Below, in pieces: positions 7,373 to 24,607 of a stretch of 31,132 nucleotides of DNA. The stretch comes from a virus, in IMG/VR virus record IMGVR_UViG_3300049812_001703, positions 1 to 31,132 of that record. The stretch is one strand, 5' to 3'. A program made the translations under genes and the position numbers. The notes under the pieces were generated by a model that was given only the letters and a program-made list of their open reading frames with translations, made no database searches and had not been told where the DNA came from. Position 1 is the stretch's first letter, and the number at the start of each line of letters is the position of its first letter.

Positions 7373-7843
7373 TTAGCTATCAGCGAAAGGAGTTACGGCC
7401 TCACCAGAGCCAAGAAGCATGCCCTGCACAAGGTACACGTTATCTTCAATGGCAGTGATCTCGACGTAAGAACCCTTGTCGCCACCAGTGGTGGTGCCGT
7501 TCATCGAAATGACATCGTTAGACGCTGCTGGAGCATAGGTCTCTGTCAGGCCAGAATCTTCCATGACAGAAAGCGAACCAACAAACTTGTCGGTGCCGTC
7601 AGTCTTGATGTCACAATCGCTGCAATCGGTACCAACGAAGAAGGTGTAGCGAGCGCCGAGAGTGTCGGTGGTGATGGTCGGGAGGGTAACCGCGCCGTCG
7701 GCATCGTTGATCTTGATGATGCGGCCAACGTGATTGTCATAGGTGAGGGTGGTCTCTGCGGTGATGTTAACCATCGCGTTAGAGCCTTGTGCGGTGAAAC
7801 CGCGCTGGGACCGGACTGGACCCGAAAAAGTTGTTTTAGCCAT
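7373..7843 (-). CDS. Head fibre / decoration-like virion protein
   Basis: 156 residues. It starts MAKTTFSGPVRSQRGFTAQG and continues with 'TAETTLTYDNHVGRIIKIND', 'AVTLPTITTD' and a two-cysteine 'TDCSDCDIKTDG' motif. The pattern matches small trimeric head-fibre or decoration proteins of marine phages as I remember them. It is the first gene after the capsid-gene terminator at 7904-7933, so it may be made at a different level from the capsid protein. ATG at 7843 has AGGAA a few bases upstream. Confidence 0.7.
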   Translation of the reverse strand: MAKTTFSGPVRSQRGFTAQGSNAMVNITAETTLTYDNHVGRIIKINDADGAVTLPTITTDTLGARYTFFVGTDCSDCDIKTDGTDKFVGSLSVMEDSGLTETYAPAASNDVISMNGTTTGGDKGSYVEITAIEDNVYLVQGMLLGSGEAVTPFADS

Positions 7844-7903
7844 GAGGAACTCCTTGTCGCGGCTATTGTCAGCAAGATGCTGTCAAGGTTCCTATACAGT
7901 ATA

Positions 7904-10902: not shown

Positions 10903-11264
10903 GCTCTTGCATATCCTCTTGGGTCATCGACAACCGCCTCAACGGTGTCGTCATTGATAAGACGGAACTCTTCCTTTTCGACCTTAAATCTGGTTCCAGA
11001 ATAAGATCGGAAGATCACGAAGTCGCCCTCTTTGCAATAAGGGCCATTTGGGAACTTATCAGTATCACCGTAAGCATCAGGCCCCATCTTGACGACGAAC
11101 CCAATTAGAGATGCTGTCTGTTCCGCTGACTTCAGCTTGTCTGGCATGTAAATGCCCGATTCCGTTTTCTCTTTAACCTCAAGCGGCTTGATCAAGAGTT
11201 TGTACCCGGACGGTTCCGGGATCTTGGATGCGACCTCATTGGTCGATACTTCAGCAGAATACAT
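10899..11264 (-). CDS. GroES-like co-chaperonin
   Basis: 121 residues with the Cpn10 beta-barrel pattern: 'PSGYKLLIKPLEVKEKTESG', then 'IYMPDKLKSAEQTASLIGFV' in the mobile-loop region, and 'CKEGDFVIFRSYSGTRFKVE' leading to the end strand. Phage co-chaperonins such as T4 gp31 replace host GroES so that GroEL can fold the capsid protein. Placement directly upstream of scaffold and capsid genes supports that role. The N-terminal 15 residues and the tail after the barrel are extensions relative to bacterial GroES, which is about 95-100 residues. Confidence 0.85.
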   Translation of the reverse strand: MYSAEVSTNEVASKIPEPSGYKLLIKPLEVKEKTESGIYMPDKLKSAEQTASLIGFVVKMGPDAYGDTDKFPNGPYCKEGDFVIFRSYSGTRFKVEKEEFRLINDDTVEAVVDDPRGYARA

Positions 11265-17748: not shown

Positions 17749-17804
17749 TTCCTGTCGCCGGGGATTGGTACCCCGGCCTGATGAGACACCACACGAAACA
17801 GGGA
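17749..17804 (+). ncRNA. Hammerhead ribozyme 1 (HHR1)
   Basis: All catalytic-core parts are in order. Stem III 5' strand is 17749-17754, cleavage triplet GTC 17754-17756, and stem I GCCGGGG/CCCCGGC (17757-17763 with 17771-17777, 7 bp, 7-nt loop). The core CTGATGA is 17778-17784 and GAAA is 17795-17798. Stem III closes with 17799-17804 (CAGG with CCTG, plus a G-U and an A-U pair). Cleavage is predicted after C17756. Stem II (17785-17794) has only one possible pair (G17785-C17794), which is unusual. The AGGGAG ribosome binding site of the next gene lies in stem III. Topology is type III (open at stem III). Confidence 0.82.
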
Positions 17805-17812
17805 GACGCTAC

Positions 17813-18370
17813 ATGCGCTATTCAGTTTTTCAGGTTCACCTTTCCAAGAACGACATCGACTGGCTCAACGCCGGGGTCGAGACCACACTGACCACCGAAT
17901 GGATGCGGAACCGCAGCTTTGCGAAGGACGCGCCAATGTGGCTGATCTTCGAGGGTCACTTCCAGCATGCTGCTGAGATCACCACCGACGCCGATCTCGA
18001 CTGGGACGAAGAGGTCATCGAAGCCGATCTCGAAAACGTCTTCCGCATCGGAAACATCGGGCCAAGGGTCGGCACCGGCGTGATCAGCGACGAGGACATC
18101 AAGACCGGCGACCGCTTCCATTCGATATCGGTTGGCGATCTGGTGGTCGATCCTGCCGACAACGTCTGGCACGTTCAGTCCTTTGGCTGGCAGAAGATCG
18201 GCACGGTGACTGATCCGACCGGCCCCATGAACCGGCTGGTGATCGACGAGACGTTGGTCGCCGCTGCCGACGCGCAGGATGCTGCAAACAAGGCTGAGGC
18301 TGAGGCACAGGCTCGTTATGACGAGATGGCGTCCAATGCAGCCAGCTACTACTTCCAGTCTGGTCAATAA
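17813..18370 (+). CDS. First plus-strand early protein, unknown
   Basis: 185 residues from ATG at 17813 (MRYSVFQVHLSKNDIDWLNA), chosen for the AGGGAG seven bases upstream. It is acidic, with 'ADLENVFRIGNIGP', 'RFHSISVGDLVVDPADNVWH' and a Lys/Ala/Glu helical tail. The '...HSVSVGD...' motif recurs in a family of small phage proteins that I recall as uncharacterised. The mRNA start is probably made by the hammerhead at 17749-17804, whose stem III contains the ribosome binding site. A UUCG hairpin and a second hammerhead follow the stop. Confidence 0.75.
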   Translation: MRYSVFQVHLSKNDIDWLNAGVETTLTTEWMRNRSFAKDAPMWLIFEGHFQHAAEITTDADLDWDEEVIEADLENVFRIGNIGPRVGTGVISDEDIKTGDRFHSISVGDLVVDPADNVWHVQSFGWQKIGTVTDPTGPMNRLVIDETLVAAADAQDAANKAEAEAQARYDEMASNAASYYFQSGQ

Positions 18371-18374
18371 CGAT

Positions 18375-18392
18375 AGGGGGCTTCGGCCCCCT
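18375..18392 (+). other. UUCG-capped hairpin at gene end (no U tract)
   Basis: AGGGGGC-TTCG-GCCCCCT, a 7-bp stem closed by a stable tetraloop, four bases after the stop of the first early gene. No T run follows. Instead hammerhead 2 begins, so the hairpin probably protects the 3' end that ribozyme cleavage creates. Confidence 0.75.
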
Positions 18393-18464
18393 GTGTCTGC
18401 GCCTGAAGCTGGCGCACTGATGAGCCGCACGGTGCGGCCTTGGCCCAAGCATGGGCGAAACACA
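18392..18464 (+). ncRNA. Hammerhead ribozyme 2 (HHR2)
   Basis: Stem III is TGTG (18392-18395) with CACA (18461-18464). Cleavage triplet GTC is 18395-18397, and stem I TGCGCC/GGCGCA (18398-18403 with 18411-18416, 6 bp, 7-nt loop). The core CTGATGA is 18417-18423 and GAAA 18457-18460, with A18460 facing U18396. Cleavage is predicted after C18397. The stem II region (18424-18456) is enlarged. It can form two side-by-side hairpins (GCCGC/GCGGC and GCCC/GGGC) or a 3-bp outer stem with a branch. It sits between the first two early genes, just after a UUCG hairpin. Confidence 0.87.
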
Positions 18465-18489
18465 CACAACCCTTTGGGAGACTTACCAC

Positions 18490-19146
18490 ATGCCTAAAAA
18501 CACTTTTGCACTCGACGCCGACAACCTCAACGTCATCGGTTCCAACCAAACCCGCATCGACACCCTGAAGGGTGACGCTGCCACCATCCGCGAAGAAAGC
18601 CAAACCCTGAAGCTGGACAGCTACTGCCAGCTGATCGCCGGTATCGCGGACGTGAAGCTGACCAGCAAGTCGAACCTTCCGACCGCTGTCTCTTCTAGCC
18701 TGAAGGGCGACCTGATGGATGTCGGGCAGCAGACTGAGAGCATGGCCAACAAGCTGGTCAAGAACGCTGTCGGTGCGCGGAACGTGTTCGGCATTGCCGG
18801 TGACAACATCACGCCTGAGATGGTCGCCAGCGTCTTTGCCGACAACGAGATCACATCTGAGGCCAAGCTGATCAAGGCTGTCTCTGGTGACGCTGAGAAG
18901 ACCAAGGTTCAGCTTGCCGTCGAGAAGATTGTCGGTCGCCGCTCAACCAAGAAGGACGAGAAGGGCAACCGCATCGACGGTGACAAGTGGGTCGGTGGCT
19001 TCACCTATGAAGAGATCGAAGAGTTCACCATGCTCATGGCCGACACCATGGAGGTGCGCCGCGCCATGGAGGCAGCCGCTCAGGAAGCAGCCGACAAGGT
19101 GGACTCCGACAACGAGAGCGCAAACGAAATGCTCGACCAGCTTTAG
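18490..19146 (+). CDS. Unknown early protein
   Basis: 218 residues from ATG at 18490 (MPKNTFALDADNLNVIGSNQ), which has GGGAG ten bases upstream. An upstream in-frame ATG at 18451 would start inside the hammerhead. The chain is helical and charged, without motifs I recognise. Notable stretches are 'LTSKSNLPTAVSSSLKGDLM', 'GVRN'-like 'NAVGARNVFGIAGDNITPEM' and a Glu/Ala-rich C-terminal helix. Its leader holds the second hammerhead, so its transcript would begin with a 5'-hydroxyl at 18398. It may act with the ATPase/VWA pair downstream (inference from position). Confidence 0.7.
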   Translation: MPKNTFALDADNLNVIGSNQTRIDTLKGDAATIREESQTLKLDSYCQLIAGIADVKLTSKSNLPTAVSSSLKGDLMDVGQQTESMANKLVKNAVGARNVFGIAGDNITPEMVASVFADNEITSEAKLIKAVSGDAEKTKVQLAVEKIVGRRSTKKDEKGNRIDGDKWVGGFTYEEIEEFTMLMADTMEVRRAMEAAAQEAADKVDSDNESANEMLDQL

Positions 19147-23630: not shown

Positions 23631-24536
23631 ATGAGCAAAGTTGCTCTCATCTCAAACCAGCGCAAGCTGGTGGCTTCAGACGACCTTGATCAGCAGATTG
23701 CTACCCTCAGTTCGCTGATTAACAACCCACCCCAGAACTCGCGCACTGTCGAGATCGGGCCTAAGTTGGCGGAGTACATTCTTGCCAACATCAACATCGG
23801 CAACCGCCCCAAGAAGGTGAAGAAGATTGCCGTCTACTCCAACGACATGGCGAACAGCAACTGGTCACTGACTGGTGACGCCATCAAGTTCGGTACAGAC
23901 GGTCACCTCAAGGACGGCCAGAACCGTCTGGCGGCGTGTGTCCGCGCAGGGGTTCCATTCGTCACCGACGCACGTTTCGGCATCGATCCAAAGTCATTCG
24001 TCCACATGGACGTGGGCGCAACGCGGACCAACTCAGACATCTTCGCGATCATGTCTGTGCCGTACCCGAATGACACCGGACAGGTCATCCGCTTGATCCG
24101 GGCATTCGAGCAGGGCAAGGCGTACTCACGCCACCTGAACCTGACCAACGATCAGATGCGTGAAATCTACACCGACGAAATGGATCACACGGTTCTGGAG
24201 TTGGGCATCAAGATGGCGCGTCAGGCCACCAAGACCACAGGTATTTCTGTGGCTCCCATGGCCGCGCTGTTCTATGTCGCATGGAAGCGTGGGCATAGCG
24301 AACAGGTGAAGCAGTTTTTGATCGACCTCAAGAACGGCTACGGCACCGGAGTGCGCTCACCTGTACGCTATCTTCTTGAAACGATTGTCCGCATTAAGAT
24401 GGAAAATCGTAACAAGATACACCCTGACGTTGCTTGCATTCTTCTTGCACGGGCTTGGCACAACTACAAAGTAGGTAAAGCGTCCGTCAAGAAAGACATG
24501 CAGGTTACAGCTGCAAGCGTCATGCCAACAATCTAA
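23631..24536 (+). CDS. ParB/Srx-like fold protein
   Basis: 301 residues. The N-terminal half has the ParB/Srx-like pattern: 'IAVYSNDMANSNWSLTGDAI' followed by 'FGTDGHLKDGQNRLAACVRA', then 'FVHMDVGATRTNSDIF'. In phages this family occurs as predicted DNA-binding or nucleotide-dependent proteins of unknown role. The C-terminal half is helical ('LELGIKMARQATKTTGISVA'). ParB family proteins are CTP-dependent DNA clamps, but the classical C-terminal dimer domain is not evident. ATG at 23631 follows the palindrome 23459-23476 and a long leader. A terminator follows the gene at 24547-24571. Confidence 0.75.
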   Translation: MSKVALISNQRKLVASDDLDQQIATLSSLINNPPQNSRTVEIGPKLAEYILANINIGNRPKKVKKIAVYSNDMANSNWSLTGDAIKFGTDGHLKDGQNRLAACVRAGVPFVTDARFGIDPKSFVHMDVGATRTNSDIFAIMSVPYPNDTGQVIRLIRAFEQGKAYSRHLNLTNDQMREIYTDEMDHTVLELGIKMARQATKTTGISVAPMAALFYVAWKRGHSEQVKQFLIDLKNGYGTGVRSPVRYLLETIVRIKMENRNKIHPDVACILLARAWHNYKVGKASVKKDMQVTAASVMPTI

Positions 24537-24540
24537 CGAC

Positions 24541-24571
24541 AAAAAAGAGGCCGGGTTTAGCGCCCGGCCTC
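24541..24571. terminator. Bidirectional terminator between convergent genes
   Basis: GAGGCCGGG/CCCGGCCTC, a 9-bp stem with a 7-nt loop. Six T follow on the minus strand and a weaker AGTCTTT on the plus strand. It separates the ParB-like gene from the minus-strand replication genes. Confidence 0.85.
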
Positions 24572-24604
24572 AGTCTTTGGGAGGAAACAACATATTGTTG
24601 CCTC
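24541..24604 (-). ncRNA. Candidate small RNA with its own promoter and terminator
   Basis: On the minus strand a TTGACA-N17-TAATTT box (24636 to 24608) is followed by about 60 nt. A first hairpin is GAGGCAACA-ATA-TGTTG...CCTC (24604-24581). The sequence ends in the 9-bp GC-rich terminator hairpin with six T (24571-24541). No reading frame of note is contained. It may simply be the 3' untranslated end of the small gene at 24633-24839, but the promoter box and short self-contained structure suggest an independent transcript. Confidence 0.35.
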
Positions 24605-24607
24605 TAA

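Follow-up and report, generated by a model that had tools for sequence, protein, structure and literature searches.

The region between the first two rightward genes of this virus, whose complete 31,132-base record constitutes the window analysed here, appears to carry a type III hammerhead ribozyme (hammerhead 2) in which an additional hairpin and a CUUG linker are inserted between the catalytic core and stem II. Comparison of related loci makes it likely that this is a genuine hammerhead, that it makes the polycistronic phage mRNA self-cleave between genes 1 and 2, and that the inserted cassette adjusts the core. The window encodes a terminase, an SU10-type portal, a primase-helicase and an annealing protein, and the features relevant to the present analysis are as follows.

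17751 to 17802, plus strand: hammerhead 1, with stem I GCCGGGG/CCCCGGC, CUGAUGA and a one-pair stem II (GACACCACAC).
17813 to 18370, plus strand: gene 1 (185 aa), the first rightward gene and the upstream partner.
18375 to 18392, plus strand: hairpin AGGGGGC-UUCG-GCCCCCU, stable in the fold and adjoining the 5' strand of stem III.
18392 to 18397, plus strand: TGTGT, the 5' side of stem III, followed by the cleavage base C17 (sequence, Rfam alignment, model R1).
18398 to 18416, plus strand: stem I, TGCGCC-TGAAGCT-GGCGCA, 6 bp, with loop UGAAGCU (UGNNGCU in the family), assigned by covariation.
18417 to 18423, plus strand: catalytic core CUGAUGA, the same in every relative, although the search patterns prescribed it.
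18424 to 18438, plus strand: inserted hairpin 1, GCCGC-ACGGU-GCGGC, 5 bp, assigned by covariation and missing in L064.
18439 to 18442, plus strand: CUUG linker, unchanged in 19 further contigs, even where a scan left it free.
18443 to 18456, plus strand: stem II proper (hairpin 2), GCCC-AAGCAU-GGGC, 4 bp, with RGCA in its loop, assigned by covariation.
18457 to 18464, plus strand: core GAA and 3' strand of stem III, ACACA (sequence, Rfam alignment, model R1); GAA(A) occupies 18457 to 18460.
18476 to 18482, plus strand: GGGAGAC, which probably serves gene 2 as ribosome binding site, judged from the sequence and from similar motifs downstream in relatives.
18490 to 19146, plus strand: gene 2 (218 aa, mostly helical).

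The elements on which the original prediction was built, namely CTGATGA, GAAA, a 6-bp stem I, a GTC site and a 4-bp stem III, are all found in the sequence where it had placed them. They compose, over 18392-18464, a type III hammerhead with an open stem III, a GUC site, a 6-bp stem I, CUGAUGA and GAAA. Stem III consists of GTGT/ACAC, with a fifth pair if T18392-A18464 is included, and the cut is predicted to occur between 18397 and 18398. The Rfam model for type III hammerheads, RF00008, has the same open stem III, GUC site, CUGAUGA/GAAA core and closed stems I and II. Its match to 18390-18466 scores 34.9 bits, with an E-value of 4.6e-4 across all families. Hammerhead 2 differs from that family by a hairpin and CUUG placed between CUGAUGA and stem II, and its score lies below the gathering score of 48.5 bits, probably because the long insertion is penalised. 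The motif CUGANGA...GAAA...UH is present in type III order, and three helices surround the core, with covariation in stem I, stem II and hairpin 1. CUGANGA does not directly adjoin stem II, being separated from it by a cassette of 18-19 nt (the 5-bp hairpin 1 plus CUUG); hammerhead 2 was graded as a variant, since this adjacency is a published generalisation and not a proven catalytic requirement. According to a 2023 study, no known hammerhead alignment holds an insertion of more than 1-2 nt at that position (PMC10085705).

The prediction of a second, real type III hammerhead at this place, on the same strand as another hammerhead approximately 640 nt upstream, is supported. Hammerhead 1, which the Rfam search does not report, was judged from its sequence and homologues, and is predicted to be cut at 17756/17757. 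Its loops are complementary (UGGU/ACCA), and the corresponding hammerheads of L105 and L129 combine another stem I with the loops GGUA/UACC, which suggests a conserved loop-loop pseudoknot. Second hammerheads were read by eye in L105, L129, L137 and L202. The single record L202 holds three type I-like hammerheads (reverse strand, 4519, 5592 and 6229), each with an additional T separating CTGATGA from stem II, besides the branched one; in L137, a type I-like hammerhead with core CTGACGA (10927-10978) lies some 1.3 kb further downstream than the branched hammerhead.

The expectation by chance was estimated from 1500 simulated windows with the dinucleotide make-up of the real one. The type III grammar was matched 30 times in the 1500 (0.02 per simulated window), as opposed to twice in the real window, at 18392-18464 and at 17751-17802; the two-hairpin form appeared three times in the 1500 and once in the real window. 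Although type III grammars do occur at 0.02 per simulated window, the 12 distinct relatives with CUUG, and the covariation among them, render a chance resemblance devoid of function extremely improbable.

These relatives were found through pattern scans of viral contigs, which list many type III hammerheads among their matches. The two-hairpin form with CUUG was present in 20 viral contigs (the window and 19 others), corresponding to 12 distinct sequences; L131 and L132 carry an identical region and probably represent the same virus. One looser two-hairpin variant, L302 (184-261, minus strand), was added to the 12; it has a different hairpin 1 and the linker TCA, and precedes an unrelated reading frame. 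In several scans the pattern prescribed CUUG, or else the G following CUGAUGA and the C preceding GAAA. Another scan prescribed nothing but UGUC, CUGAUGAG and CGAAACA, so that the first G was the only fixed letter of the cassette; it returned 20 contigs, 19 with CUUG plus L302. When the first G of the cassette and the flanking C were also freed, the same members were recovered along with coding-like matches that model R1 does not recognise. The conservation of CUUG is therefore not a product of the queries, because scans that leave it free still return it. A pattern scan of genome contigs for host or prophage copies gave 56 matches, none of which was accepted on the basis of stem I scores and flanks, the three SAR86 matches with a 6-bp stem I being judged without R1 scoring. 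Model R1 yielded a single weak match, devoid of the core, across 293 genomes of one order, and searches of named phages with the hammerhead 2 region (blastn) and with gene 2 (tblastn) gave no match.

Covariance modelling on related genomes, proposed as a check in the original prediction, supports the structure: R1 aligns 14 loci end to end. In alignment A4, whose pair counts lean towards R1 given that it was fitted to this model, 14 of 20 base pairs changed on both sides, including 6/6 pairs of stem I, 4/5 of hairpin 1 and 3/4 of stem II, and 97.7% of the cells are paired. None of 500 shuffled controls reached these values, and sliding the pairing partners by 1-3 columns left pairing at only 27-53%. 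Since A4 was fitted to R1, reliance was also placed on near-identical sequences with single compensations, which exist for stem II (L174 versus L130, G-C to A-U), hairpin 1 (L138 versus L130, C-G to G-C) and stem I (L133 versus L129, G-C to A-U). Stem III is nearly invariant, partly through search design, and is little informative. A4 was preferred to an earlier MAFFT alignment, A2, which placed the hairpin gap within a stem.

The claim that 33 nt replacing stem II can form two adjacent hairpins stands as far as the hairpins are concerned, as both covary, but stem II has not been replaced. The unbranched type III hammerheads of L056, L064 and L098 share a 6-bp stem I with a UGNNGCU-like loop and a stem II of 4-5 bp with GCA in its loop. 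GCA is likewise held by the loops of hairpin 2 in the branched form (AAGCAU, UAGCAA, UAGCAG, CGGCAG) and not by those of hairpin 1, and loop I UGNNGCU and loop II RGCA occur together in branched and unbranched members alike. Furthermore, the L064 ribozyme corresponds to those of L130, L139 and L174 minus 18 nt immediately after CUGAUGA (hairpin 1 and CUUG), stem II being the same in L064 and L130, and the gene that follows it shares 48-52% identity with its counterparts in L130, L139 and L174. L056 is also unbranched, and its following gene is 66-74% identical to those of L071, L129, L133 and L105. The absence of the cassette from L064 and L056 indicates that it is optional and sits between CUGAUGA and an intact stem II. 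By this comparison, hairpin 2 represents the usual stem II, and the optional insertion consists of hairpin 1 with CUUG; this refines the notion of a branched stem II, since the cassette precedes stem II and is exactly what L064 misses. On the gene 2 tree, which is small and has long branches, cassette states require at least three changes. L052 and L138, whose gene 2 proteins are sisters (53% identity), have nearly the same stem I and different cassettes, as if these had been exchanged or separately replaced.

A different arrangement, corresponding to the branched stem II of the original prediction, would place the insertion within stem II, with G18424-C18456 forming pair 10.1-11.1 and both hairpins branching above it as a three-way junction. 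Such a structure would keep the A9/G10.1 site, a known metal site of hammerheads (PMC6257768), and G18424 and C18456 are invariant even in the scan that leaves both free. It is nevertheless improbable: a nearest-neighbour calculation, which ignores the tertiary core, finds it less favourable by some 12-15 kcal/mol than a pair of complete hairpins, and in the alignment of L064 with L130 the cassette alone is missing, the 4-bp stem II being complete.

The cassette probably affects the activity of hammerhead 2, because it splits the A9/G10.1 metal site (PMC6257768) and a junction that is reported to be contiguous in every known alignment (PMC10085705). The ribozyme might be slow or inactive, as the insertion interrupts that junction and separates A9 from G10.1. 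In the extreme case, the insertion would have inactivated a former hammerhead that is now retained as a stable structured leader or an RNA-processing signal. Its location at A9/G10.1 would fit such a loss, as would L004, which keeps the genes (gene 2 66% identical) with neither hammerhead present and in which a search for a replacement ribozyme gave no Rfam match. CUGAUGA, GAAA, GUC and all stems are, however, intact across loci whose homologous downstream proteins are as little as ~25% identical, where a dead core should decay, although core conservation is partly by construction, the searches having fixed parts of it. We regard a disabled ribozyme as improbable, to about the same degree as the three-way junction.

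The cassette itself does not resemble a neutral insertion, given that hairpin 1 covaries and CUUG is invariant. Tertiary contact, a ligand pocket and protein binding had been put forward as possible roles of the insertion. The loop of hairpin 1 varies among relatives (ACGGU, AUGGU, GUGGU, AUGUC, AUAGU, AUCC), and this variation lends no support to a conserved ligand pocket; invariance is confined to the CUUG linker. Pairing of CUUG with loop II, which is suggested by CAAG, was rejected, as loop II also reads UAGCAA, UAGCAG or CGGCAG while CUUG is unchanged. Minimum-energy folds instead pair the CUUG uridines with A13-A14 of the core, and this evokes a switch in which such pairing would hold the ribozyme off until a protein or ligand bound to hairpin 1, or the order of folding during transcription, frees the core and thereby sets the time of mRNA cutting. 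The cassette is optional, hairpin 1 changes by compensation next to an invariant CUUG, and each of the 12 CUUG sequences is predicted to form the U-A13 (~0.5-0.8) and U-A14 (~0.4-0.7) pairs. The competing structure would nonetheless be a weak off state comprising two A-U pairs only, proposed by a nearest-neighbour model that is blind to the active core; in addition, the loop of hairpin 1 is variable, L302 dispenses with CUUG, and no ligand or protein is known. A switch is a minority reading, if the foremost among them, and its more elaborate form, in which a swappable hairpin-CUUG module times the cutting of phage mRNA through CUUG/GAA pairing and a trans-acting factor, is slightly less probable still.

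Hammerhead 2 had been described as lying between the first two early genes; it does lie between the first two rightward genes, while the term "early" is drawn from the MoxR/VWA module downstream. MoxR homologues are found farther downstream in the window and in L071, L073, L105, L129, L133, L137, L138 and L174. In the relatives, the distance from the end of the ribozyme to the first usable start codon is mostly 20-28 nt, L174 having an additional in-frame ATG 6 nt after the ribozyme. The gene 2 family follows the ribozyme in most relatives, its proteins falling into two groups of ~195-232 aa that are weakly joined (E ~0.002-0.006); in L202 the downstream gene is different and, as read by eye, encodes a protein with an AAA-like ATP-binding motif. 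Gene 2 has no match in Pfam or PHROGs, and its structure model (pLDDT 68) matches one uncharacterised viral protein but has no significant PDB match. A sigma-70 promoter was looked for and not found. Elsewhere in the window, a Mu-gpT-DE-like RNA (7841-7888, minus strand, 45.1 bits versus a cut-off of 49) lies beside the start of a leftward gene, and a suhB/mmgR-like small RNA (24534-24606, minus strand, 32 bits, below cut-off) ends in a terminator-like hairpin and T run, giving a weak hint of an alphaproteobacterial host.

In the scheme that we favour, the polycistronic phage mRNA would be cut co-transcriptionally, separating its gene 1 and gene 2 parts. The upstream product would terminate in a 2',3'-cyclic phosphate just past the UUCG hairpin, which would cap its 3' end; a hairpin directly adjoins stem III in 7 of 14 relatives. 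The gene 2 mRNA would start 92 nt upstream of its AUG, with stem I as a hairpin leader bearing the 5'-OH. Stem II would still form the loop I-loop II contact, while the cassette would protrude from the core and alter its folding or speed.

Hammerheads clustered between phage genes have been known since 2011, when self-cleavage of clustered prophage hammerheads was reported both in vitro and in E. coli (Perreault et al. 2011, PMC3088659). The loci described here resemble that system in having several hammerheads between phage genes, proposed there to split long transcripts and in some cases active, and differ from it in the hairpin at the CUGAUGA-stem II site, which the accessible part of that report does not describe. 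Non-circularly permuted hammerheads (PMC10085705) indicate that the architecture tolerates rearranged connections, but in these CUGAnGA is contiguous with its adjacent stems, whereas in hammerhead 2 it is interrupted. Hammerheads with a one-pair stem II or a pseudoknot (PMC3088659, PMC11300833) resemble hammerhead 1, whereas the stem II of hammerhead 2 is normal. In the open-licence literature, no description was found of a hairpin cassette placed between CUGAUGA and stem II. These observations bear on the long-standing question of the role of phage hammerheads and of how far their core can change, and homologous loci with the cassette, without it (L064, L056) and without the ribozyme (L004) offer a natural comparison of RNAs of ~80 nt. 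If active, hammerhead 2 would contradict the published rule of unbroken contiguity between CUGANGA and stem II, would give designers of ribozyme switches a site for insertions, and would imply that searches assuming contiguity, or applying the Rfam cut-off, overlook such ribozymes.
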